A stretch of 64,000 nt of DNA from a virus. The position numbers were made by a program, and so were the translations under genes. Position 1 is the stretch's first letter; each line of letters opens with the position of its first letter. Where the stretch lies: the IMG/VR virus record IMGVR_UViG_3300028610_000244, positions 33,869 to 97,868 of that record. One strand, written 5' to 3'. Under the pieces are notes generated by a model. It did no database searches. It was given only the letters and a program-made list of their open reading frames with translations, and had not been told where the DNA came from. Of the stretch, positions 46,945 to 60,575 are shown one piece after another.

Positions 46945-48717
46945 TTAATTCTCCTTGAGGGCGAAGAAATAATTTCTGTTCGATTGACCGCAATTCTGGA
47001 AGCACTTATACACGTCGGTTCCAATATAGATTCGGTCCTCAGAGTTGATGGTTCCGTCTGGATTAAAACAGAAGACCCCACGCATACTGCCGAAAAGTCT
47101 TCGCTCACCGACATCGGATACTATCGTACACGGAACCAACATGAACTCGTCACTAACTCTTTTCAATTCATCCTGACCTGCTGGGATAATAGTCTTTACA
47201 TTGAACAGCTCACCCCAGTTATGGGTATCGACATACCAGGAGTTCGGTGCTGCCGGAGGATTATAATCTGTCCCCGCACATGGGGTGATCTGCACAACGT
47301 CATCAATATTAAGCAGGCTTGGGTTTCCACTAACTATTTCCCAATTGGCTACTTGTGTGAAGGTGCCGTCCGGCTTTCTTAACCAGCCGGGTCCACCATA
47401 GGTCGAAGACTCTGCCGTCCACACACCGGGATTATTCATCCCAGCAAAGTCGTTTCCGCCATAGGTGTATGGTGACTTCCTCGCTATGCAGCCAAGAATC
47501 AATTGAGGATATCCCCACTCATTTGCTGTTAAAAATCTATCCGGTGCTCCCAAATACATGTTGGGATAGACCGAGGCGACTTTGAACACAGCCGTGATTC
47601 TTTCATCATCTATACTCATCCAATAGTTGATGGTTGCCGGTGTACCTCCACCAGACAACGGGACATAGTTATCCTCCCGGTCGCTGTCAGCACTCACGGC
47701 TCCAGGCTGCTGATCCCACGGAGTCGAGACTGAGTTGAATCCTGAGAAACCATTGCACTGCAAGACATACGCTGTTTCCGGGCTCGTCTCTTTCACCGAC
47801 TTCCAGCCGATGTATTGGTCAGTGGTTGTATTGTGGATCATCAGGTATTTGTGTTCGAGCACAGTAGTGGCATACGTCATCGTCAACGTGAGGCCCGAGC
47901 CTGTGCCACCAGACGAGCTGGCCGGATTGCCGGGTGTCGTGATATACTCGCCACCTGTGTTGACTGTGACTGCACTCGGTACTCCACCAGATTCCGCTGT
48001 GATCTTGACCGTAGCTGCTTCCGTGAACGATCCACCGACGACTGTCACTATGTCGTTCAGCGTGTAGCCGGTGCCGGCCACTGCGATAGCTGCCACTGTA
48101 GCTTCCTCGGCCTCGTGGTCAACCTTCGCCTCCCAAGCCGTATCCACGTATGTCACCTCGAACTTGGCACCAGTGCCTGATCCACTTGACGTATTCTGGA
48201 GCACGGGATTACTCGCCTGTGACGTATAGACACCTGCGTCGGAAATATGGCTGGCAGTTATGATGCCGCTGCCCGCCGTGAATGTAAAGTCGATTGTACA
48301 GCCTGTCCCTGCTCCGTCTGACGTCGTCGCTACTGGGTTTGTCGGCTGAGCCGAAGCAACGCCTGGGTTTAGTATGAGGATCGTCGCCACGGCCGAACCT
48401 GAGAGCGTCAGCACCTCCAGGACCGGAGCCACATCATAGGTGCCTGTAGTGGGAACCAATGAGTCACCGATAACGTAGCCGGTGCCGCCAGCGTTCACGG
48501 CAGCAACCGTGATGTAGTCACCGGACGTAACACCTCGGACTTCAATTTCTGGCTCATGGTATTTGGTTCCACCTGCCAGCACGATTGTGTCACCGACAGC
48601 ATAATCAATACCACCATCATAGATGTCTGCGACAGAAATGTGGTCGTCCTTCGCCAGATTCTTTATGATATCCATCATGTCTTGATAGTCAGTTGCTGTT
48701 CCCTTAAACCAAGCCAT
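46945..48717 (-). CDS. Repetitive beta virion protein with MAWFKGTATD tag, 590 aa
   Basis: Shares its N-terminal tag with the 345-aa protein. Residues 20-290 contain about four Y.(V/L)(G/N)D.(V/I/L) repeats (GGIDYAVGDTIVLAGG, GGTGYVIGDSLVP, GTGYTLNDIVTVVGG) with interspersed GSGTG elements, a known beta-repeat of phage and bacterial surface proteins. Probably a long fibre or tail decoration. It is followed by C-terminal domains like those of the 345-aa protein (DVYKCFQNCGQSNRNYF). Confidence 0.75.
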   Translation of the reverse strand: MAWFKGTATDYQDMMDIIKNLAKDDHISVADIYDGGIDYAVGDTIVLAGGTKYHEPEIEVRGVTSGDYITVAAVNAGGTGYVIGDSLVPTTGTYDVAPVLEVLTLSGSAVATILILNPGVASAQPTNPVATTSDGAGTGCTIDFTFTAGSGIITASHISDAGVYTSQASNPVLQNTSSGSGTGAKFEVTYVDTAWEAKVDHEAEEATVAAIAVAGTGYTLNDIVTVVGGSFTEAATVKITAESGGVPSAVTVNTGGEYITTPGNPASSSGGTGSGLTLTMTYATTVLEHKYLMIHNTTTDQYIGWKSVKETSPETAYVLQCNGFSGFNSVSTPWDQQPGAVSADSDREDNYVPLSGGGTPATINYWMSIDDERITAVFKVASVYPNMYLGAPDRFLTANEWGYPQLILGCIARKSPYTYGGNDFAGMNNPGVWTAESSTYGGPGWLRKPDGTFTQVANWEIVSGNPSLLNIDDVVQITPCAGTDYNPPAAPNSWYVDTHNWGELFNVKTIIPAGQDELKRVSDEFMLVPCTIVSDVGERRLFGSMRGVFCFNPDGTINSEDRIYIGTDVYKCFQNCGQSNRNYFFALKEN

Positions 48718-51218
48718 TATGCACTCCCGCTACTATTATAGGTTCTGATTTCGTTTCTGATGATTCGCTTACCCTCAGCACTGCCCATCGCGGAGAGTGC
48801 TTCATCTTCGCTTGACACGTTGATGATTGTCACTGCACCTTCCTGTGCAGGCTCTTGAGCTGTCGGGTCCGGTATAATACGTCCAGGTTGGGCGGGCTGG
48901 AATATCTCGGGTCCGCGTTCACCAACAAGGAACGGACTACCTGGAGAGACGGGACCACCGAGGGCTCTTCCGGCTGGCCCTGCACCTCCTCCGAATGAAG
49001 AAGTTGGTACTCCACCACCACCAGCACTGCCAGCACTGCCGCCGAGGACACCAAAGGCACCAGCTATCTGACCACCCATCCCACCACCACCGGCCATACT
49101 GCTGAGCAGGCCCATAAGAGCTTGTCGGGCCAGGAGCCGAGTAAGGTCAGCAAGCATCCCATCAACGAGACTCTTAAAGTTGACCTTGCCGGTCGTGACA
49201 AAGGACACCAGGGCGTCCTCCATGCCTTTGAATGCGTTGACAATTGTCCTCTCAGCCATGCTCGCAAAGTCACTGATCTCAAGACCGAGCTTCATAAAGC
49301 CACGTTGGAAGCCCGACAACACGTCGGTGTTGACCTCCATCGACTTTATTTTAAGCTCCGTCATCTTGCGGTTCACTTGATCCAGTGTGGCCTCCATACC
49401 CTCAGTGCCGGGCTGCTGTGTGTTGATCGCTGTCCACAACTCCTGGAGCTGGAGCATCTGATTGTTCACTTTACCGACGTCGCCGATCATGTCCTTTAGT
49501 AATTGAAGTTGAACCGGAGTCGGAGAGAATATACCTTCCCCGGCTTCGCCAGGACCACCAGTGTCGCCAGTACCTGCCTTCGTCCTGGCAAACAAATCCT
49601 CTACGCCTTCACTGATGAAATCAGACATCTCGAAGCCGCGACCGAATGCGTCACCGAGTGACTCGCCGGCCTGCTCTGCGGAGAACTTAGCACCGGCCAA
49701 TGAATCTTCGCTTGTAGCTTCCACGAGCTTCTCACTGAATATGGTAGTGAAGTCAGTGAACCCACCTGTAGCCGCTTTCTTGAGAGACTCCGCTGCATCG
49801 GCGGCGTGCTTCCTGGCCTGTGAGAAATTACGTGACATCAGTGAATCGGCTGCGGCCGCTATCGAGTTAAAACCGCTAGAGACGTTCGCACCGAAATTGC
49901 TGATTATTTGTCCGAGGGTCGCAAACCCAGCCATGATAGCGTCGATAACAAATTCAACACCTGTAAGAATTCCATTCCACGCAAGCTCAGCGTATCCCGG
50001 AATGTTTTTGAAGATTGTCTTGATGACCTCACCAGCTCCAACAAAGAAGCCGAGGAATGCGTCGATGAACGCTGCAACATCCGTCAGGATCGTCTCGAAT
50101 GTTATCGTAGTCTCCCTCTGAATATCAACGCCTTCAAACAAGCCTGTCATTCCGTCACGCATAATTCCGTATGTGACCTTGGCGTTCTCTCCAAGCTCTG
50201 TCATAAAATCAGCAAGCGTGGCTGTTGAGTCATTGGCTATTTTGATTTTGTCGGCGAAGACTACTAACGCAGCTCCCGCCAAAAGAATAGCAGTCGCCAG
50301 CGGATTAACTTTGAGTATCGCAAGACTGAACAGTTTCATCTGGGCGACAATCCCTATCAGATTCTTGAGCAAGATTCCACCAAGGAGTGCTCCCACAATC
50401 CCCACGGCTTTTCCGAAGACGTCCATGTTGTCTGAGACCCAGAGGATAACTTGGGCCAAGCCGGCTGTACCTTGGATGCTCTGATCTAAATCACCAACGA
50501 ACTTCTGGAGAGAATTGTGAAGAACGGTCACGGCCTGATCCACTGTCGGAATACGTCTGCCGAATCTTTCGGCCAAACTCTTCTCTGCGTCATTGAAGGC
50601 GTCGATGATTACCTGGGTAGTGACACGTCCTTCAAACGCCCACTTCCTTAGTTCACCTCGACCGATGCCTAAGAATCTGGTAAGTGTCTGAGTCACAATC
50701 GGCAACTGTTCCATGACCGAACGAAGCTCATCACCACGCAACGCACCAGCAGCCAAGCCCTGAGAGAACTGAACCATACCCCACTGAGCTTCACGGGCGG
50801 TGACACCTGAGAGGATGATGGCGTGGTTCAACTGCGTAGCGAACCGCACAACGTCCTTCATCTCCAAACCCATCTGCTTTGTGTTGATCGCAATACGGGA
50901 ATACATGTCGATGTTCGCTTCCAGAGACGTTCTGGTCTGACGACTCATCTTGAACACAGCGTCCATTGCCGCGTGCAGTGCCCAGGTGCCGTCCGTGACA
51001 ACACGGAGCTTATTAAGCATGTTGGCATAGCTGTCAGCAAGTAGGATGGTGTCCTTAATCACCTTCGCAGAGACGAGTCCGGCGAGGACCGTCTTCAACT
51101 TATCCATCTGACCTGTAGTCCTATCACCTGCCTCACCAACTTCTGAAATATTACGCTTGACGACTCGGGCACCGTCTTCGCGGATTTCAATTAGCAGTAG
51201 TTCTTTTTTACTAGCCAC
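48717..51218 (-). CDS. Tape measure protein, 833 aa
   Basis: Determines tail length and is threaded through the tail tube. N-terminal tape-measure domain (VKRNISEVGEAGDRTTGQM, SRQTRTSLEANIDMYSRIA, GALRGDELRSVMEQLP) matches the TIGR02675 type. The central part has hydrophobic segments (IVGALLGGILLKNLIGIV, AILLAGAALVVFADKI, ILTDVAAFIDAFLGFFVGAGEVI). The C-terminal MEDALVSFVTTGKVNFKSLV and GGPVSPGSPFLVGERGPEIF are lambda-family tape-measure signatures. It follows the tail assembly chaperones as expected. By the usual length rule the tail would be of the order of 100-130 nm (inference). Confidence 0.93.
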   Translation of the reverse strand: MASKKELLLIEIREDGARVVKRNISEVGEAGDRTTGQMDKLKTVLAGLVSAKVIKDTILLADSYANMLNKLRVVTDGTWALHAAMDAVFKMSRQTRTSLEANIDMYSRIAINTKQMGLEMKDVVRFATQLNHAIILSGVTAREAQWGMVQFSQGLAAGALRGDELRSVMEQLPIVTQTLTRFLGIGRGELRKWAFEGRVTTQVIIDAFNDAEKSLAERFGRRIPTVDQAVTVLHNSLQKFVGDLDQSIQGTAGLAQVILWVSDNMDVFGKAVGIVGALLGGILLKNLIGIVAQMKLFSLAILKVNPLATAILLAGAALVVFADKIKIANDSTATLADFMTELGENAKVTYGIMRDGMTGLFEGVDIQRETTITFETILTDVAAFIDAFLGFFVGAGEVIKTIFKNIPGYAELAWNGILTGVEFVIDAIMAGFATLGQIISNFGANVSSGFNSIAAAADSLMSRNFSQARKHAADAAESLKKAATGGFTDFTTIFSEKLVEATSEDSLAGAKFSAEQAGESLGDAFGRGFEMSDFISEGVEDLFARTKAGTGDTGGPGEAGEGIFSPTPVQLQLLKDMIGDVGKVNNQMLQLQELWTAINTQQPGTEGMEATLDQVNRKMTELKIKSMEVNTDVLSGFQRGFMKLGLEISDFASMAERTIVNAFKGMEDALVSFVTTGKVNFKSLVDGMLADLTRLLARQALMGLLSSMAGGGGMGGQIAGAFGVLGGSAGSAGGGGVPTSSFGGGAGPAGRALGGPVSPGSPFLVGERGPEIFQPAQPGRIIPDPTAQEPAQEGAVTIINVSSEDEALSAMGSAEGKRIIRNEIRTYNSSGSA

Positions 51219-51639
51219 GGAGTAGCCTACCTTTTCTCAAGACAGCTTGTGCGGCGGCAATGGCAAACGTAGTCATGCCGGCACGAGCCTGTGCGGATTT
51301 TCCTTTATCCAAATCATCAATGTATCCCACCGAATTAGCAATGAAAATGTTGCCGCCGCCAACCTTCCATCCTTTAACTGCATTGGACGCATCAATCAGT
51401 GCCTTAGCACTTGCGACCTGCCGATTCGTATCAACATTGGGTGTGTTTGGGCCTTCCACCACGCCCGTCTTCGGCCTCTTTGCCGACAACTTCCAACTGA
51501 TCCTGGCGTGACCTGTCTTTACCGGAGTGCGTAGAACGGCTTCCCTCGTTGCGGCCACAGCGGCGTCACGAATTGTCTTGGAGACGTTGACTAGAAGTGC
51601 GTCACCAATCTTACTCATTCTACGTCCGAAATTTCCCAT
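51211..51639 (-). CDS. HK97 gp10-like neck/tail protein, 142 aa
   Basis: RTPVKTGHARISWKLSA and IFIANSVGYIDDLDKGKSAQARAGM match the HK97 gp10 family (neck or tail-completion component). Here it lies between the chaperones and the tape measure, not beside the tail terminator, which is a departure from the commonest order. The ATG is 8 nt from a consensus -10 box, implying a leaderless transcript. Overlaps the tape measure start by 8 nt. Confidence 0.78.
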   Translation of the reverse strand: MGNFGRRMSKIGDALLVNVSKTIRDAAVAATREAVLRTPVKTGHARISWKLSAKRPKTGVVEGPNTPNVDTNRQVASAKALIDASNAVKGWKVGGGNIFIANSVGYIDDLDKGKSAQARAGMTTFAIAAAQAVLRKGRLLRG

Positions 51640-51647
51640 ATAGGATC

Positions 51648-51676
51648 ATTATACACGATATTATCGGCGAAATCAA
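51648..51676 (-). promoter_or_regulatory. Promoter with start codon 8 nt downstream of the -10
   Basis: -35 TTGATT (51671-51676), 17 bp, -10 TATAAT (51648-51653). Only 8 nt (51640-51647) separate the -10 from the ATG of the gp10-like gene, so transcription probably starts at or next to the A of the start codon. No Shine-Dalgarno fits in the space. Confidence 0.75.
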
Positions 51677-51984
51677 GACTTATCTTTATTTTTTCGAGCC
51701 ACATGGGCCAAGAATGCCTGATCCATCATTCGTATATGATAGTGCAAGTCCTCTTCCTCTTCCTCGGTTAGCTCCAACCTTTCCGCGTACTCAGCAATAC
51801 ACCAGGATGGTATCGGCCCAGCCGACCAGCCTGTGTTTCGATTGGTATTCAGCTCAACGAATGCTTGGAAGTATAGCTCCAGACCCATGAAGAGGTTTGG
51901 AGCATTTTGTATGCGTTCAGGCAATGCCTTCTTACGGGCATAGCACTCTCGGATCATTCTCTGTTCTACCTGCCCCATCTCCAT
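51673..51984 (-). CDS. Second tail assembly chaperone ORF (GT extension), 103 aa
   Basis: Helical protein (MEMGQVEQRMIRECYARKK, LELTEEEEEDLHYHIRMMDQAFLAHVARKN). Its reading frame is -1 relative to the 146-aa chaperone, and a slippery heptamer lies at the end of that gene. By frameshifting this sequence is appended to the first chaperone (111 extra residues, beginning LIDCLLYY), as lambda gpGT. Whether the internal ATG is used independently is uncertain; no good ribosome site precedes it. Confidence 0.8.
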   Translation of the reverse strand: MEMGQVEQRMIRECYARKKALPERIQNAPNLFMGLELYFQAFVELNTNRNTGWSAGPIPSWCIAEYAERLELTEEEEEDLHYHIRMMDQAFLAHVARKNKDKS

Positions 51985-52004
51985 GTAGTAGAGCAGGCAG
52001 TCAA

Positions 52005-52445
52005 TCAGTTTCCCGAGTCGGCTTCGTTGATCTCAGCACGGAAATACGAGATGGTGTCCGATGCCTTCTGGATGTCGGCAAACAGGTTGGGCTGAGCCCG
52101 GAGGACGGCTTCGACGTTGTCCTTGTTGAAGTCCAGCATCTGTTCGGCGTCATCGTCGTCTTTGGTGATAAGGTCTTTGGTGAAGCCCTTCCAATCAACG
52201 ATGATCGCCTGAGCGTATGCCTTGATGAAGAGGTCTCTCAGGATTTCATCATCCACGGATTCGGTCTGGATCGCTCTGCGGTGAGGTTTGGCGAGACGCT
52301 GCATCGTCTTGGCGAAATGCTTGTTGCTGCCGCCAGCACGGGCAATTCTTACTTCGACGCCGGGGGCGTAGACGATCCAGATACCGTCACGTTCCACCGC
52401 CGTGTCTGTCTCGAACATTCTACGTAGGGCATTCTTGTTACTCAT
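52005..52445 (-). CDS. Tail assembly chaperone (G-like), 146 aa
   Basis: Contains the layout of G-type chaperones: WIVYAPGVEVRIARAGGSN..F near the N-terminus (a YxxxPGVEVRIARxGG core), then ILRDLFIKAYAQAIIVDWKG and a helical acidic C-terminus. This protein, with its frameshifted extension, holds the tape measure while tail-tube subunits assemble. The last codons contain the slippery heptamer. Confidence 0.84.
   Translation of the reverse strand: MSNKNALRRMFETDTAVERDGIWIVYAPGVEVRIARAGGSNKHFAKTMQRLAKPHRRAIQTESVDDEILRDLFIKAYAQAIIVDWKGFTKDLITKDDDDAEQMLDFNKDNVEAVLRAQPNLFADIQKASDTISYFRAEINEADSGN
52008..52014 (-). other. Programmed -1 frameshift site GGGAAAC
   Basis: On the minus strand the zero-frame codons read TCG GGA AAC TGA, so the heptamer is in the canonical G GGA AAC register, immediately before the stop codon. 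A -1 slip lets the ribosome continue CTG ATT GAC... into the 51673-51984 frame without a stop. The predicted fusion is 257 aa. Position between the first chaperone and the gene preceding the tape-measure region is that of the conserved G/GT frameshift of long-tailed phages. Confidence 0.85.
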
Positions 52446-52506: not shown

Positions 52507-54045
52507 TTATGCTTCTGCCGCGTCGGGGAGGTAATCCCAGAAGCACATCAGCAATGTGTGGTCGAAGCCCGAGATGGCTCCGGTGCCGATGGCTGCTTCC
52601 TGGCTCAGCGGAATTCTGATCGCTTCATTCTGGGCAACATCCAATCTTCCATCACCCAGGGACATCAGCGGAATGTCAACTGTGATGCCTGCGTTTTCTT
52701 TCACCAAGTGCATGTCCAGCGTGACATCAGAGTTATCCCTGATCGCCGCAATGGAGGGGACATCCACAAAGTAGGCTGTCAGGGAGCCGGTGACAACAAA
52801 GTTGCCGTGACTCGCATCGAACCCACCAAGTACGCCGATTGCCTTGTCCGGCGAGACGTTGTTGTTGACTGTGATAGTCATCTCCTCGGCGAATGCGAAC
52901 AGCGGCGTCGGATTCTCATCTGTGTCCGAGACGATTGCGAGGTTAATCAGCGGGACGTTAGACGACGTGTTGAACGCCGACTCTTCGGTCGCGGTGATTC
53001 TCGTACCTGATTTCACGCCGACGACACCAGTTCTGGTTTCGTGATCCATTGCAACGAATGCCAGATCAAGCATCGCTTTGTCGGCGGTGGGAATATTCAG
53101 GCTCAACTCATTCGGCACAGCACCGATGAGGTACTCGCTCTGAATCTCTGACGGCTGGCCGCTATCCGGAGCACCGAGCTGACGCTCGATGTTGTAGGTG
53201 CGTCTCACGATGCTGGTGCCGACTTCGTTCTTCAAGACGCGAGGCACGAAGACTCGGATCGTCTTGGTAGCACCGTCGTCTGTCACCATATCGGCCTGAG
53301 ACTTGTCGATGACGATTGCATTCGTGTCAATCGAGCGAACACGCATGAAGCCCATCCCGCTTGTGGCGAACTGCTCTGCGGCAATGTCACCGCCGACGTA
53401 GATGAACTCGCCTGGAACCAAGCCCAGCTCGTCCAGGTCTTTTGTGGTCGTGGTCAACTGCGGCAGGGAGCCGGTCATATCGACTTCGAGATCACCTGCT
53501 GCGAACTGGAAGCCAACCGCTACGAGTGTGGCAGTTGCCGGAGGAGTCTCGGCAACCAGTGTCTCAGAGACGGTCAACACGGTCGCGGTGGCAACAGTGA
53601 CTTCCTTGAGACCGTTATTGGCTGCGTTGGTGAAACCGGCAGCGAAGACAAGATCGCCAACCTCGTAGACGTCAAGCCCAGATGCGGCCGTGTAGGTCTC
53701 GGGGCCGGTCGTGACGCCGGTGATCTCGCTGGCACCACCGAACTCGGCTTTGACGCGAAGGTCCGCGAAGAAGAAACCCTGCAATAGGTCTTGCAGACCT
53801 GCCTGCACGAGATCGTGATTGACCGAACCCGCCGCGTCCAGGTCAGTTGTCTGGCCCTTACGGTTCTGTCGGTCAGTTCGGAACGGCATTCTTGAGACCT
53901 TGGAGATCGAGCCACCGAAGTCTGAAAAGCTGTTCACATCCAGAGGACGCCAAATAGGAGTACCCGGCAGTGTCTTGATGGACAGCTCCTCAGCGTATGC
54001 TGTCTCCACCACATTAGAGTTAATTTTATTCTGGTCTACTGCCAT
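52507..54045 (-). CDS. Major tail tube protein, 512 aa
   Basis: N-terminal TPIWRPLDVNSFSDFGGSISKV and PFRTDRQNRKGQTTDLDAAG are typical of long phage tail-tube proteins. Central beta domains (TATVLTVSETLVAETPPATA) and a C-terminal segment HLVKENAGITVDIPLMSLGDGR follow. Located between the tail terminator and the chaperone pair as expected. It is longer than a minimal tube subunit, so it probably carries an inserted Ig-like domain (about residues 105-180). Confidence 0.82.
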   Translation of the reverse strand: MAVDQNKINSNVVETAYAEELSIKTLPGTPIWRPLDVNSFSDFGGSISKVSRMPFRTDRQNRKGQTTDLDAAGSVNHDLVQAGLQDLLQGFFFADLRVKAEFGGASEITGVTTGPETYTAASGLDVYEVGDLVFAAGFTNAANNGLKEVTVATATVLTVSETLVAETPPATATLVAVGFQFAAGDLEVDMTGSLPQLTTTTKDLDELGLVPGEFIYVGGDIAAEQFATSGMGFMRVRSIDTNAIVIDKSQADMVTDDGATKTIRVFVPRVLKNEVGTSIVRRTYNIERQLGAPDSGQPSEIQSEYLIGAVPNELSLNIPTADKAMLDLAFVAMDHETRTGVVGVKSGTRITATEESAFNTSSNVPLINLAIVSDTDENPTPLFAFAEEMTITVNNNVSPDKAIGVLGGFDASHGNFVVTGSLTAYFVDVPSIAAIRDNSDVTLDMHLVKENAGITVDIPLMSLGDGRLDVAQNEAIRIPLSQEAAIGTGAISGFDHTLLMCFWDYLPDAAEA

Positions 54046-54062
54046 TATATTGCTCCTTAATT

Positions 54063-54482
54063 TTAACGGATTAAATCATATTGAAACTCGGCTATCGCAT
54101 CCGAGCGAAACCAGCTACCATCTTCACCCACCTCAACTTCTGAGACATCCCCGATCCAGATGTCACCATCTGAAAATTTTCTCAAGGAATCTGCGAACGC
54201 CGCAGAAAGAACGTCACTATTCTGTAACCCATCATCTCTAGGTGTGTAAATTTCAATGAACACGAAACCACTCTGAGTGTGTTTACTCTTGGTGTCGGCA
54301 CGGCCGAGCGAGGCTCTTGTTCCATTCGCGTGCTTGACCGAGATACGAACCCACTTGACGCTCACGTCGTCCGGCACCTCTTTGGCAGTGTCGTCGTAGA
54401 TTGCATAGAGGGACTGTGCATCAACGACCGTTTTCAGCGGCGTCAGCATCCTGTCTCGAAAGTCTGTTCTTGATGCAATCAT
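54063..54482 (-). CDS. Tail terminator-like protein (DUF4128 type), 139 aa
   Basis: MIASRTDFRDRMLTPLKTVVDAQSLYAIYDDT ... WVRISVKHANGTRASLG ... GFVFIEIYTPRDDG matches small phage tail-completion/terminator proteins. Located directly before the tube gene in transcription order. The ATG is 8 nt from the -10 box of the promoter at 54491, with no ribosome site, so a leaderless start is predicted. Confidence 0.78.
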   Translation of the reverse strand: MIASRTDFRDRMLTPLKTVVDAQSLYAIYDDTAKEVPDDVSVKWVRISVKHANGTRASLGRADTKSKHTQSGFVFIEIYTPRDDGLQNSDVLSAAFADSLRKFSDGDIWIGDVSEVEVGEDGSWFRSDAIAEFQYDLIR

Positions 54483-54523: not shown

Positions 54524-54883
54524 TTATTGCCGCACTTGCAAAATGTAAAGGATAATATCGGACTTATGGCTAATTTTTTGAACATCGACAACATTCCAGG
54601 ACGAGGTGTCCAGTGAGTCCACGATCTTGGTGCCGGCCTCAATATCTATGACCTCATCCGGAATCACACATATTCGCTGATCGCCACGCTTGACATGATC
54701 GCCATCAATCTCATTGGCTTTGTAGAAAAAGAACACACCCATAGCGTTCGTCGGTGTGCCAGCCGCGTTCCCACGCCACGGCTTATTTGCATCGGACACG
54801 GCTCCAGGGACGGCGATGGTAAATGCCCGTCCCTCGTCCGCAATCAGTTCTTCAACCCACGCCCATTCTTCGGGAAGTGCCAT
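54524..54883 (-). CDS. Head-tail connector/neck protein, 119 aa
   Basis: MALPEEWAWVEELIADEGRAFTIAV ... GNAAGTPTNAMGVFFFYKANEIDGDHVKRGDQRICVIP ends with DIILYILQVRQ. The beta barrel (a GDQR.C...D pattern) resembles head-closure or stopper proteins. Position between adaptor and tail terminator agrees. Start overlaps the upstream stop (TAATG) with GGGAGGGG before it; an upstream extension of 28 codons would lie inside the adaptor gene. Confidence 0.72.
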   Translation of the reverse strand: MALPEEWAWVEELIADEGRAFTIAVPGAVSDANKPWRGNAAGTPTNAMGVFFFYKANEIDGDHVKRGDQRICVIPDEVIDIEAGTKIVDSLDTSSWNVVDVQKISHKSDIILYILQVRQ

Positions 54884-55410
54884 TAGCCCCTCCCAAGTGT
54901 TCGCCGTGTTGACGCGAGCAACCTTGTTTTCTTCATCTTCCCATCGGCCACAGGATAGCCCAGCCATGCGTTTGAATTGGAGCCACCCTGGAAATACTCG
55001 GTTTCCTTTTCCAGCACAGCAACTTTCTTCCGGCTCATCTTGACTTTCAGTCCAGAGGTGTCAAGGTTGGGTGCTGCATAGAGTGAGCTTGCCAGGGCGG
55101 ACATCGCGTACTCAGCACAAGCCTCTTCCAGCTCGGCCGGGAATGGGTCCACTGTGAATCCAGTGCGGGGGTCATAGACCCCAGATCGCGGGCACTCGGT
55201 AGACTGATCTACGTCTTCCCGATCACCCGCGAACGTCCATCTGGAGTCCATGTAATCCGTTGCCCTGACTATCGCCTCCTCAATCTCCGTATCAGAGGAG
55301 GATGAATAACTACCGCCCCGGTCGTCGTGGTAGGCTTTGAAAACAACCACGCTTATGTAGGCGTTCGCCGTTGATAGCGGTGCGTCTGGGTCTTGTACTA
55401 CGAAAGCCAT
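54883..55410 (-). CDS. Head-tail adaptor (DnaT-like fold), 175 aa
   Basis: STANAYISVVVFKAYHDDRGGSY, then IEEAIVRATDYMDSRWTFAGDR and CPRSGVYDPRTG: the pattern of the phage DnaT-like/head-tail adaptor family, helical subunits that bind the portal. Typically follows the capsid genes. The C-terminus is basic (GKMKKTRLLASTRRTLGRG). Confidence 0.82.
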   Translation of the reverse strand: MAFVVQDPDAPLSTANAYISVVVFKAYHDDRGGSYSSSSDTEIEEAIVRATDYMDSRWTFAGDREDVDQSTECPRSGVYDPRTGFTVDPFPAELEEACAEYAMSALASSLYAAPNLDTSGLKVKMSRKKVAVLEKETEYFQGGSNSNAWLGYPVADGKMKKTRLLASTRRTLGRG

Positions 55411-55971: not shown

Positions 55972-56541
55972 TTAGTGGCCGCTGCCGATTTCGTACACGA
56001 CTTGCGGCGTCACGACGTCGTTCAGGTTCACCGACAAGGCGGCTCCACCAGCACCCTCATGGACGAGGGTATCATAGAACGCCGGGAAGTCAACCGTGGG
56101 ATCATCCCAGCCCGTGATCGGGGGCAAGAACTCAACCGTGACGGTGTGATCGCCCAGGGTGTCCGTGGTTTCCGCAATGGTCAACGCAGGCGTTGCGTAG
56201 GCAGCACCAGCAATCGAGCTGGTCGCATTCAATGCCGTGACCAGATCGCCACCGATGTCATCGAAGTCATCACCGGAGACGGCGGTGACAGTCACTGACT
56301 CGACCAGAGCACCAACCGTGTCGCTGATGGTAATCTTGGCACGCCAGCCAATGAGATCGACGCCTTCGGTTATAGCGGTGACGGTTGATCCCGCCCAAGC
56401 TTCGTCGCTGGGAAGGCCCAGATGAGCCTTCATCGTCAGCTTAGCTTCGGCTGCGGACTCTGCAACAACGATGCCGCCGTCCTTACCCTCTTTCAGGTAA
56501 GTCTTGGCGTTTTCGGACAAAGTAACATGAAAAAGTCCCAT
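55972..56541 (-). CDS. Virion (decoration-like) protein, paralogue A, 189 aa
   Basis: MGLFHVTLSENAKTYLKEGK and a helical VVAESAAEAKLTMKAHLG, then a beta domain (ITISDTVGALVESVTVTAV). Aligned by eye with the 182-aa protein at 56605: similar order of AKS/AKT, ESA/SSAEA, and AGST.TAITEGVDL/DQATITEQLQDL. High-expression context (its own downstream terminator) suggests a capsid decoration or other abundant virion protein. Confidence 0.72.
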   Translation of the reverse strand: MGLFHVTLSENAKTYLKEGKDGGIVVAESAAEAKLTMKAHLGLPSDEAWAGSTVTAITEGVDLIGWRAKITISDTVGALVESVTVTAVSGDDFDDIGGDLVTALNATSSIAGAAYATPALTIAETTDTLGDHTVTVEFLPPITGWDDPTVDFPAFYDTLVHEGAGGAALSVNLNDVVTPQVVYEIGSGH

Positions 56542-56604: not shown

Positions 56605-57153
56605 TTACTTGTACGAGCCCAGGACTCGCGGGGTCGGACAGTCTGCCAGGATGTCAACCGTAAGGATGGCACCTGCGATACCTTCGTCCACGATGTTTGC
56701 GAAGAACAAAGCCGTCAGCACTTCGGCGTTGGGGCCGATAGCTGTAGCAGTGACAGCCATGTCACCTTTATTGTCCGCAATATCCGCGATCTCAAGTGTA
56801 CCCACCTTGCCGTGCGTGGCTTCGGGAGTCCAGGTCGAAGTGTTGTCCACCTCGCAAAGGATTTCCAACGCGGTTCCTACATCAGCCCAGGTGTCGCCAG
56901 CGAGGCCGGTGTGTGCGTAGACTTCGGGTGTTCCGCCAGGATCGACAGTGACCGTGAAGACAACGCCTTCCAGGTCTTGAAGCTGCTCGGTGATCGTAGC
57001 CTGATCCCAGACAGAATCCATGTCCTTAGTGGACACTGCCTTGACGGCAACCAATGCTTCGGCCGAAGAAGCTGCTTCAACCAGATGCTCAACTATACCA
57101 TCATGCACAATCGACTTGGCTGTGGCAGGTAGAGCGATTCTGTAAATACTCAT
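56605..57153 (-). CDS. Virion (decoration-like) protein, paralogue B, 182 aa
   Basis: MSIYRIALPATAKSIVHDGIVEHLVEAASSAEALVAVKAV (helix), then a beta domain (VVFTVTVDPGGTPEVYAHTGLAG). Same plan as the 189-aa protein. It follows the capsid gene behind the terminator at 57175. Probably a head decoration or cement protein (inference from position and duplication). Confidence 0.72.
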   Translation of the reverse strand: MSIYRIALPATAKSIVHDGIVEHLVEAASSAEALVAVKAVSTKDMDSVWDQATITEQLQDLEGVVFTVTVDPGGTPEVYAHTGLAGDTWADVGTALEILCEVDNTSTWTPEATHGKVGTLEIADIADNKGDMAVTATAIGPNAEVLTALFFANIVDEGIAGAILTVDILADCPTPRVLGSYK

Positions 57154-57220: not shown

Positions 57221-58141
57221 TTAATTCAGGATGCCTTCGGCACCAGCCAAGCCAAGCTCACTGAACAAGGCCAAGCCACAGTACCACTTGACACGCCAGA
57301 TGTGCTCGTCCTTGGTCTCGCTCTCACCAACATCTACGACCTGGAGGCCGAAGGCGTTGGAGGCGGTCAGGCCCATCAGACCTGTCTTCATGTCGCCGTC
57401 ATCAAAAACGCCGGCGAAGATCGAGGTGCAGACGGCACCGGAGCCACCCTTGACCTGATCGGTCGGGAGCCAATCGTTCCTCAGAATCGGAACGCTGGAG
57501 TAGGCCGGCACGTTCTTGCCGCTGGGAAGCTCGTAAACTTCCTGCATGGTGACGCCACCCAAAGCACGGAGCAAGGTCTTGTAGGACCGGATCGTGCGGG
57601 CGTGCATGACGATGTAATCGACTTCGCCGTCTTTCGCTGTCACGAGGTCAAGCATCTCGTCCATGATCTCGAAGCTCAGGTTCGAGCCGCTGGCACCCGT
57701 GGTGGCGGTCTGACTTGCAGCCAACAGGTTGATGAGACCATTGAACTCATCAGAGGCACCCGTACCATTGACGAGCTGGTTCTGATAATTTCGGCCAGCA
57801 CTCTTGGCTTTGGACGCGATCTGGACGCCGGTCTGATCGTTGTCGCTGGAGCGAGTAGCCTGGATAAGGCCATCGACCTCGGCGTCACCGATGATCTTGG
57901 TCAGATTGCTTGTGACCTGGGTGAACGTTGCAGCCGCCTTCGCGGTGATAGTTCCACCAACGCCAATACTCTCGACGTCACCAAGGGCGTTCTCGCGGTT
58001 GTACGCCAGAGCGTTACCATTGATGCCCTCGAAAGGCAGCAACTGGAACATGTGATTGACGGTGATGACGGACTCAATGAGGCCGGCGATGAGGGTGTCC
58101 TGTGCCAGTTTTGCGGATTCAGCAAGTGTAACAGATGCCAT
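57221..58141 (-). CDS. Major capsid protein, 306 aa
   Basis: MASVTLAESAKLAQDTLIAGLIESVITVNHMFQLLPFE, NALAYNRENALGDV, SNLTKIIGDAEVDGLIQATRSSD and QNQLVNGTG fit the HK97-fold major capsid family found beside DUF4055 portals. Size is in the usual range. It has its own promoter with a 100-nt leader and a terminator, matching its need for very high expression. No delta domain is seen; scaffolding is supplied by the gene upstream. Confidence 0.92.
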   Translation of the reverse strand: MASVTLAESAKLAQDTLIAGLIESVITVNHMFQLLPFEGINGNALAYNRENALGDVESIGVGGTITAKAAATFTQVTSNLTKIIGDAEVDGLIQATRSSDNDQTGVQIASKAKSAGRNYQNQLVNGTGASDEFNGLINLLAASQTATTGASGSNLSFEIMDEMLDLVTAKDGEVDYIVMHARTIRSYKTLLRALGGVTMQEVYELPSGKNVPAYSSVPILRNDWLPTDQVKGGSGAVCTSIFAGVFDDGDMKTGLMGLTASNAFGLQVVDVGESETKDEHIWRVKWYCGLALFSELGLAGAEGILN

Positions 58142-58324: not shown

Positions 58325-59149
58325 CTATTTCCTCTGACTCTTGAGGCCCTCGCTGATCTTCTGAGCCGCGTTCATGTTCTTTGTTTTGTCGCCTCGACGT
58401 ACACTGGCGGGTCCGCTTGGAGCGGCTCCACCACCTTGTGCCGCTTGGTCTGACGGGAAGATTTGGCGAAGAGCTTTGTCCTTGGACATCTCCTCGAACA
58501 GCTCGTCCGTGTTCATCAACTCGCCGGCACGTTCGGGGCTTGTGGAATAGCGAGCCTCACCGGCCGCGTCAACCACTACGACACTGGGCTTCTCGTCCAC
58601 AAGAAGAACCTTCATCTGCTGGCGGGCAAACGGAGAGACCAGTTTGGGATTGAGGCCCTGCCAACCGGCACCGGCGTGCATGATTGAGGTTTCGATCATG
58701 TAGTTCTCAAGCTGACCCTGTCGGGTAGCGATCTCGCCGTCTTTGGTGGCTGTGAGTGCGGCCATCGCCTCGCTGTGATCTTTCTTGACGGCGGCGACAC
58801 GAATTGCGATGTCACTCTCGTTGCCGGATGCGTTCGCGGTCAGCTCTTCGACCTTGGTGTTGACACCGGCGACGATCTCGTCAATCGTTTGACCGTAATC
58901 AGACAACCCCGTCAGGTCTACTGCCTTGGAGTCCTTGGCGTCCTTGACTTCCTGTCTGACAGCTACCAGGGCTTTGTTCTGTCCCGTGATAACAGCAACG
59001 GCTGCGATGGTCTGAGCATCGCCTCTGAGGTTGTAGGTGACGGCACCGTCGTCGCCATCGGGTTCGATCTTCTCATAGAAGGCTCGGCAATTTTCCGGCA
59101 CCACGGTCAGCTCTTCAACGGTTCTGTTCTTTGTAAAATCAAATTTCAT
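58325..59149 (-). CDS. Scaffold protein, 274 aa
   Basis: MKFDFTKNRTVEELTVVPENCRAFYEK, then a charged helical region and EMSKDKALRQIFPSDQAAQGG near the end. The family is known from phages with this head module; scaffolds guide capsid assembly and leave before DNA packaging. The C-terminal 30 residues are basic (RRGDKTKNMNAAQKISEGLKSQ), as is typical of capsid-binding scaffold tails. Overlaps the portal by 11 nt. Confidence 0.82.
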   Translation of the reverse strand: MKFDFTKNRTVEELTVVPENCRAFYEKIEPDGDDGAVTYNLRGDAQTIAAVAVITGQNKALVAVRQEVKDAKDSKAVDLTGLSDYGQTIDEIVAGVNTKVEELTANASGNESDIAIRVAAVKKDHSEAMAALTATKDGEIATRQGQLENYMIETSIMHAGAGWQGLNPKLVSPFARQQMKVLLVDEKPSVVVVDAAGEARYSTSPERAGELMNTDELFEEMSKDKALRQIFPSDQAAQGGGAAPSGPASVRRGDKTKNMNAAQKISEGLKSQRK

Positions 59150-60575
59150 CAGTGTTCCTTTCAGGTTCTTTACTCTTGTCAGGGGTTCGGTTCGGCTTCT
59201 TGAAATTCACATTCTCTTCGTCTAACACGCCGCGACGTTGCAGCTCTTTCAGATATTCTTCTGTCGTCAGTCCTCCTTCTTTCCATGTTTCTAACAATGT
59301 TTGCAGCTCACTTGCTTCCGGTGACGTAAACTCTGTCGGAATGCGGGCCTTACCTGTGTGGTCCTTATTCATCCAGGCCGACATTATTTTCAGTGCAAAG
59401 TTTAAGGCATCATTGAAGCGAAACGCTACGTCTTGAAGAGGCGACGTCGCCTCGATTGAATCAAGTGCTCTTGCGGATGCGGCCTCACGATCAGGACGAT
59501 CTTTGGTGAACTCAGCACCATACGACTGCATCCGCTTTTCGAGATCATCCAAATCTGCCTTACCCGCAGAGATGGCGGCACCTTTGTGCTCGACATAGTA
59601 GAACCGGGCAGCGGGATCAGGTGTGTACAGCCACTCTTTAGGCCCAATGACCAGCTTACCTTCCTCGTCGTCGCCGCCCGAGACCGCGAGCATCGGGAAT
59701 CTGGCTACGGTGAGGATCGAAATCTGATCTGACATAGACTGCCAGTGGCGTATGTTCAGGTCCGCAAGATCATCAAGCGGGGACCGGCCCTGCATGAAGC
59801 CTGTGCGATCCGAGTAGAATGTCACGAGCGGAATGAAGTCGATGTCCATCCACCATGTTTCCACTACGCCCCAGTTCTGTTTTTCATCCTGCTGATAGAT
59901 ATCAACGCGAACCTTTGTAACAAAGTTAGGCTCTTCATCAGTTCCTATGTTGATTGCGTCAAGCTCAAGAACGCGAATCTGCGGAGTAACTACTTCCTCC
60001 CATTCATCCATGTGGGTGACTTGCTCCTCGATTCGGATATGCGTCAAGACTTCTCTGCCCTCGATCCTGGTGGCTAACGCGAAGATGACCTGCTCCGGAT
60101 GAATATGGACAAAGTAGGGCCTGATGTTCATTCGGTCATCATCCGCCAGCGTCCTGCCCATTGTTGGCACTTCCATGTGGGGGAACTCAACAAGTACGTG
60201 GCTGAATGCTTTGGCTACACCATCGCGGAACCAACGACGACTAAACACATCAAGATTATTGCCATCAAGATCGACGTCGTCCATCAGCGGCACAAGATGC
60301 TCGGAGAAATCTTCGGTGAATTGAATCTGGTTTGCGAACGGACGACCCACCCACATACGAAGAGTCAGGTCAACCATGTTGAACAGCACGTTACCCATGA
60401 TACGCTCATCGTAGTTTGTCACGGACTCATGCTCATGTTTTGGGGCCATGTCCTCGCCAGCTTCTCGCATAGGCTCGGTTCCACCGAGCAGTGTGCCCAT
60501 CTTCCACCAACGATTAGTCATCGCTTCATACGCTAAGCTCGGAGTCGCTACTGTTGCCTTTTCTTTTGCGGCCAT
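59139..60575 (-). CDS. Portal protein (DUF4055 type), 478 aa
   Basis: YEAMTNRWWKMGTLLGGTEPMREAGEDMAPKH, then NYDERIMGNVLFNMVDLTLRMWVGRPF, and the C-terminal DPAARFYYVEHKGAAISAGKADLDDLEKRMQSYGAE are DUF4055 portal features. Forms the dodecameric DNA channel at the capsid vertex. The expected neighbours (terminase and scaffold) flank it. The last 30 residues are basic/acidic and flexible. Confidence 0.9.
   Translation of the reverse strand: MAAKEKATVATPSLAYEAMTNRWWKMGTLLGGTEPMREAGEDMAPKHEHESVTNYDERIMGNVLFNMVDLTLRMWVGRPFANQIQFTEDFSEHLVPLMDDVDLDGNNLDVFSRRWFRDGVAKAFSHVLVEFPHMEVPTMGRTLADDDRMNIRPYFVHIHPEQVIFALATRIEGREVLTHIRIEEQVTHMDEWEEVVTPQIRVLELDAINIGTDEEPNFVTKVRVDIYQQDEKQNWGVVETWWMDIDFIPLVTFYSDRTGFMQGRSPLDDLADLNIRHWQSMSDQISILTVARFPMLAVSGGDDEEGKLVIGPKEWLYTPDPAARFYYVEHKGAAISAGKADLDDLEKRMQSYGAEFTKDRPDREAASARALDSIEATSPLQDVAFRFNDALNFALKIMSAWMNKDHTGKARIPTEFTSPEASELQTLLETWKEGGLTTEEYLKELQRRGVLDEENVNFKKPNRTPDKSKEPERNTDEI

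Follow-up and report, generated by a model that had tools for sequence, protein, structure and literature searches.

Organization of the tail gene region

The window (the whole 64,000-nt stretch analyzed here) is part of a 97,868-base IMG/VR virus record (IMGVR_UViG_3300028610_000244), and all of the genes discussed below lie on its minus strand. The relevant features, listed in the direction of transcription, are the following:

60575..59139, minus: portal gene
58141..57221, minus: major capsid gene
54967..54524, minus: head closure gene
54482..54063, minus: tail terminator gene
52507..54045, minus: tail tube protein, upstream neighbor of the chaperone (Pfam Phage_tube_2, E 1e-21)
52005..52445, minus: tail assembly chaperone, short form, 146 aa (open reading frame; phrog_313, E 7e-22; phrog_8233 positions 9-138)
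52008..52014, minus: slippery heptamer G_GGA_AAC (from the sequence; conserved in related junctions)
52005..52007, minus: zero-frame TGA, directly 3' of the heptamer (from the sequence; adjacency common in relatives)
51673..52008, minus: -1 frame extension, 111 aa plus stop, the C-terminal part of the predicted fusion (phrog_3817, E 1e-29; phrog_8233 positions 141-252; Pfam Phage_TAC_18, E 8e-16; homologs align from residue 1)
51966..52000, minus: downstream hairpin, likely frameshift stimulator (-19.9 kcal/mol; similar hairpins in relatives)
51211..51639, minus: Neck1/tail completion (HK97 gp10-like) gene, between the chaperone and the tape measure (phrog_169, E 1e-18)
48717..51218, minus: tape measure protein (Pfam TMP_3, E 9e-48; phrog_3336, E 9e-94)

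The chaperone gene is preceded by the tube gene and followed by one neck gene and then the tape measure gene. A sequence-only reading of this region had proposed synteny with tube and tape measure genes; both are indeed present, but the tape measure gene is not the direct neighbor, because the Neck1/HK97 gp10-like gene intervenes. A neck-type gene also stands before the tape measure gene in KL1, NP1, phage 73, and Loki. Two other observations concern the structural genes nearby. Two neighboring genes that follow the major capsid gene, at 55972..56541 and 56605..57153 (minus), have paralogous products (29% identity over ~190 aa, E 4e-12) that are possibly involved in head decoration. Further, the tail tube protein, at 512 aa, is about twice the length of the 266-position Phage_tube_2 profile, and the match spans residues 15 to 479, which suggests a large insertion.

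On the minus strand, the 3' end of the chaperone gene reads GAA GCC GAC TCG GGA AAC TGA, with the heptamer in register. The -1 frame is open from CTG (52008) for 111 codons and stops at 51675..51673, so that the predicted products are a short form of 146 aa and a fusion of 257 aa (146 + 111). These details agree with what the sequence-only reading had described, namely an in-register G GGA AAC ending exactly at the TGA and an open -1 frame predicting a fusion of 257 aa in addition to the 146-aa product; its coordinates and both lengths were right. The heptamer GGGAAAC occurs twice in the 64 kb, counting both strands, against ~8 occurrences expected from dinucleotide shuffling, and thus is not a product of composition. 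When the amino acids were kept and synonymous codons drawn at random, a heptamer of the XXXYYYZ form arose at the window site in 1.2% of draws.

Both reading frames match one chaperone family

Both parts of the predicted fusion are homologous to known tail assembly chaperones (phrog_313, phrog_3817, phrog_8233, and Phage_TAC_18), and a single profile of 271 positions, phrog_8233, covers the two halves in order, with the short form matching positions 9-138 and the extension positions 141-252. A relative of the -1 extension is encoded in 238 phage-collection records, and in 60 of 60 among the matches listed the alignment starts at residue 1 of the extension. These relatives include members of Nipunavirus, Lokivirus, Septimatrevirus, Steinhofvirus, Titanvirus, and Yuavirus. 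A sequence search of the PDB with the short form found no relative.

Alternatively, the downstream frame could be an independent gene that uses its own start or is reached by reinitiation, with no fusion made. An ATG is present at 51984, and two separate genes are annotated in the records of NP1, phage 73, IMEAB3, RcTitan, and others, as in most public records. However, in the window the homology begins at the first codon of the -1 segment, upstream of this ATG, relatives differ in where the first ATG falls, and 37 of 149 related junctions have no ATG within the first 40 codons. The annotated starts of the separate gene disagree between records, and a separate gene would leave the heptamer without a reason to be kept. 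Homology upstream of any shared start codon led us to reject this reading, which we regard as very improbable.

The public records of eight relatives (L013, L015, L017, L251, L254, L255, L256, and L260) give the extension as a separate gene at inconsistent start positions, and the separate "tail chaperonin" gene of many relatives is probably a misannotated second half of the fusion. RcSimone-Hastad, Loki, and RcRudolph carry an annotated frameshifted join of the two coding sequences. In phage YuA (L249, 1501-1847) the extension has no gene annotation, and its interior bears the annotation of a -24/-12 type promoter that is reported to be highly active.

The slippery heptamer is conserved across relatives

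The junction between the two frames was compared in 149 distinct junctions from IMG/VR, named phages, and GTDB contigs; a scan of genome contigs returned only three loci. Three loci (L091, L092, and L093, on contigs DYKZ01000001 and DYKZ01000002) belong to a metagenome-assembled genome labeled Anaerolinea thermophila that carries both NP1-like and YuA-like tail genes, two of the three on one 112-kb contig, and these tail genes may come from viral contigs that were wrongly binned or joined.

A heptamer occupies the same place in all 149 junctions, as AAAAAAC in 80, GGGAAAC in 68, and GGGAAAT in one, so the loss in related phages that would have spoken against frameshifting was looked for and not seen (148 of 149 have GGGAAAC or AAAAAAC, and the remaining one GGGAAAT). 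The zero-frame stop lies directly after the heptamer in 122 junctions, one codon further on in 17, and 39 nt further on in 10, the last being a single YuA-like clade. Thinning at 75% nucleotide identity left 83 junctions, with AAAAAAC, GGGAAAC, and GGGAAAT in 46, 36, and one, respectively, and the stop adjacent in 73, one codon later in nine, and 39 nt later in one. With amino acids held and synonymous codons randomized, any XXXYYYZ heptamer would be expected in ~2.7 of 74 loci (mean 3.6%); one was observed in 74 of 74. Chance occurrence of the heptamer is ruled out by the shuffling, the synonymous-codon draws, and the 149-junction survey.

On a quick maximum-likelihood tree, the GGG and AAA triplets were exchanged as a unit ~26 times, or at least 12 times when only well-supported branches of that tree were trusted. 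No mixed, intermediate slippery triplet was found among the 149 junctions, and the close pair L024/L025 captures one such switch (TCG GGA AAC vs. TCA AAA AAC). Exchange of the whole triplet without mixed forms is what tandem slippage on XXX/YYY demands. Further, the -1 frame of many relatives is blocked by a stop only 3 to 8 codons before the slip, and therefore no other slip site is available there.

About half of the relatives have AAAAAA at the site, and the second frame could in principle be reached by transcriptional slippage on this purine run instead of by the ribosome. However, the GGGAAAC of the window contains no long homopolymer, GGGAAAC interchanges freely with AAAAAAC in the tandem-slip format, and a hairpin 7-9 nt downstream is the ribosomal arrangement, all of which make a transcriptional route exceedingly improbable.

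A conserved hairpin follows the slip site

In the window, a stem-loop (52000..51966, minus) starts 7 nt after the heptamer, with a folding energy of -19.9 kcal/mol. The hairpin has a z-score of -2.3 against dinucleotide shuffles, and its region a z-score of -3.7 against synonymous recodings. Across relatives the hairpins start 7-9 nt after the heptamer, and in 74 of 74 loci the downstream region folds more stably than its own synonymous recodings do on average (mean z -2.29), compared with a mean z of -0.26 for a control region 120 nt further on in the same 74 loci.

In the commonest stem register, columns 16-26 of alignment A2 pair with columns 32-42, and 80% of cells are paired. By a fixed-register pair count, this register has more pairing than any slid register, with 30 double-changed cells compared with 12 by shuffling; because the shuffles ignore relatedness, these compensatory changes support the stem without proving it. 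In the window and several relatives, the stem register is 6 nt wider than the commonest one. RNAalifold, run on 38 sequences, returned no consensus structure, because lineages use different stem registers. Hairpin stability and covariation together point to a stimulatory RNA element of the kind that is common, though not universal, at sites of this class. A Shine-Dalgarno-like stimulator upstream of the slip was also considered and was not convincing (58 observed vs. 51 expected). In Rfam, 51971..52014 (minus) has a sub-threshold match (22.8 bits, cut-off 43) to RF_site8, a viral gag/pro frameshift site; we read this likeness as an analogy in heptamer-plus-hairpin layout and claim no kinship.

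A programmed frameshift would yield two chaperones

We are highly confident that this phage makes two chaperones by a programmed -1 frameshift of the lambda G/GT type. This reading is strongly supported by profiles for both halves, homology from the first -1 codon, the near-invariant heptamer, and the conserved hairpin. In the proposed mechanism, the majority of ribosomes would terminate at the TGA and release the 146-aa chaperone, while the hairpin 7 nt downstream would slow a minority, which would slip from G_GGA_AAC to GGG_AAA and continue in the -1 frame to give the 257-aa fusion. If the two forms act as gpG and gpGT do in lambda, the N-terminal part common to both would bind the tape measure protein and the extension would recruit tail-tube subunits; these assembly roles are taken from lambda (PMC5009743). 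Our search of the open-access literature found no protein or reporter evidence for the frameshift in this phage family. As judged from its sequence and that of its relatives, this uncultured phage almost certainly encodes its tail chaperone in a two-product gene.

The sequence-only reading had also suggested that the rate of frameshifting may be high when the slip immediately precedes the stop. This suggestion is unsupported, as published tests show that a stop there lowers frameshifting, and the YuA-like clade lacks the adjacent stop. With the HIV slippery sequence, a stop in the adjacent position lowered frameshifting in both bacteria and mammalian cells through release-factor competition (PMC4373837), and in E. 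coli A_AAA_AAC is far less shift-prone than A_AAA_AAG (PMC5009743). Given a heptamer that ends in AAC, which is weak in E. coli in its A_AAA form, and a stop that lowers slippage elsewhere, the rate could be low, and we infer that it is probably low to modest.

The adjacent stop might nevertheless be an active part of the switch, with slippage taking place when the stop occupies the A site and the release factor competes, an idea that would add to the programmed frameshift rather than replace it. Of 74 loci, 73 have the stop within two codons, compared with ~38 expected when the amino acids are kept and synonymous codons drawn at random, although shared ancestry inflates this count. At other tail chaperone sites the mean distance from slip to stop is 26 to 36 nt (PMC10885494), and the level of RF2 altered slippage at a stop-adjacent site in the HIV-derived bacterial test (PMC4373837). 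On the other hand, the published tests found that the stop lowered the rate, and the YuA-like clade keeps the heptamer with its stop 39 nt away, so the architecture can persist without adjacency. A simpler reason, that the short form then ends without an out-of-frame tail, suffices for the position of the stop, and we consider an active role unlikely. If it were true, the ratio of short to long chaperone would be set by release-factor supply and would follow the termination capacity of the host. The 139 junctions with a stop within two codons and the YuA-like clade, which lacks one, offer a natural comparison for asking whether bacterial -1 frameshifting is tuned by a stop next to the slip.

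Comparison with known systems

The lambda heptamer is GGGAAAG, compared with GGGAAAC in the window, and the window differs further from lambda gpG/gpGT in its intervening neck gene. The YuA-like phages (YuA and MW2) share a homologous extension and GGGAAAC at the same place, but their stop comes 39 nt later rather than directly after the heptamer. We found no published statement, in the open-access literature, of how nearly fixed the stop-adjacent layout is in this family. A close likeness is to gp18/gp19 of Burkholderia phage KL1, in which GGGAAAC immediately precedes a TGA stop, the products are 142 aa and 264 aa, a downstream stem-loop is predicted, and a neck-type gene stands before the tape measure; KL1 is another phage with another sequence, and its site is likewise a prediction (BMC Genomics 2012, PMC3483164). 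In gp12/gp13 of Acinetobacter phage Loki, where the site was likewise predicted, the heptamer also adjoins the stop, the fusion is annotated, and a gp10-like gene precedes the tape measure, but the heptamer is AAAAAAC (PLoS One 2017, PMC5313236). Because the stop-adjacent layout was already reported for KL1 and Loki, the site in the window is an ordinary one, and what this analysis adds is the description of a layout that hardly varies across a large phage family.
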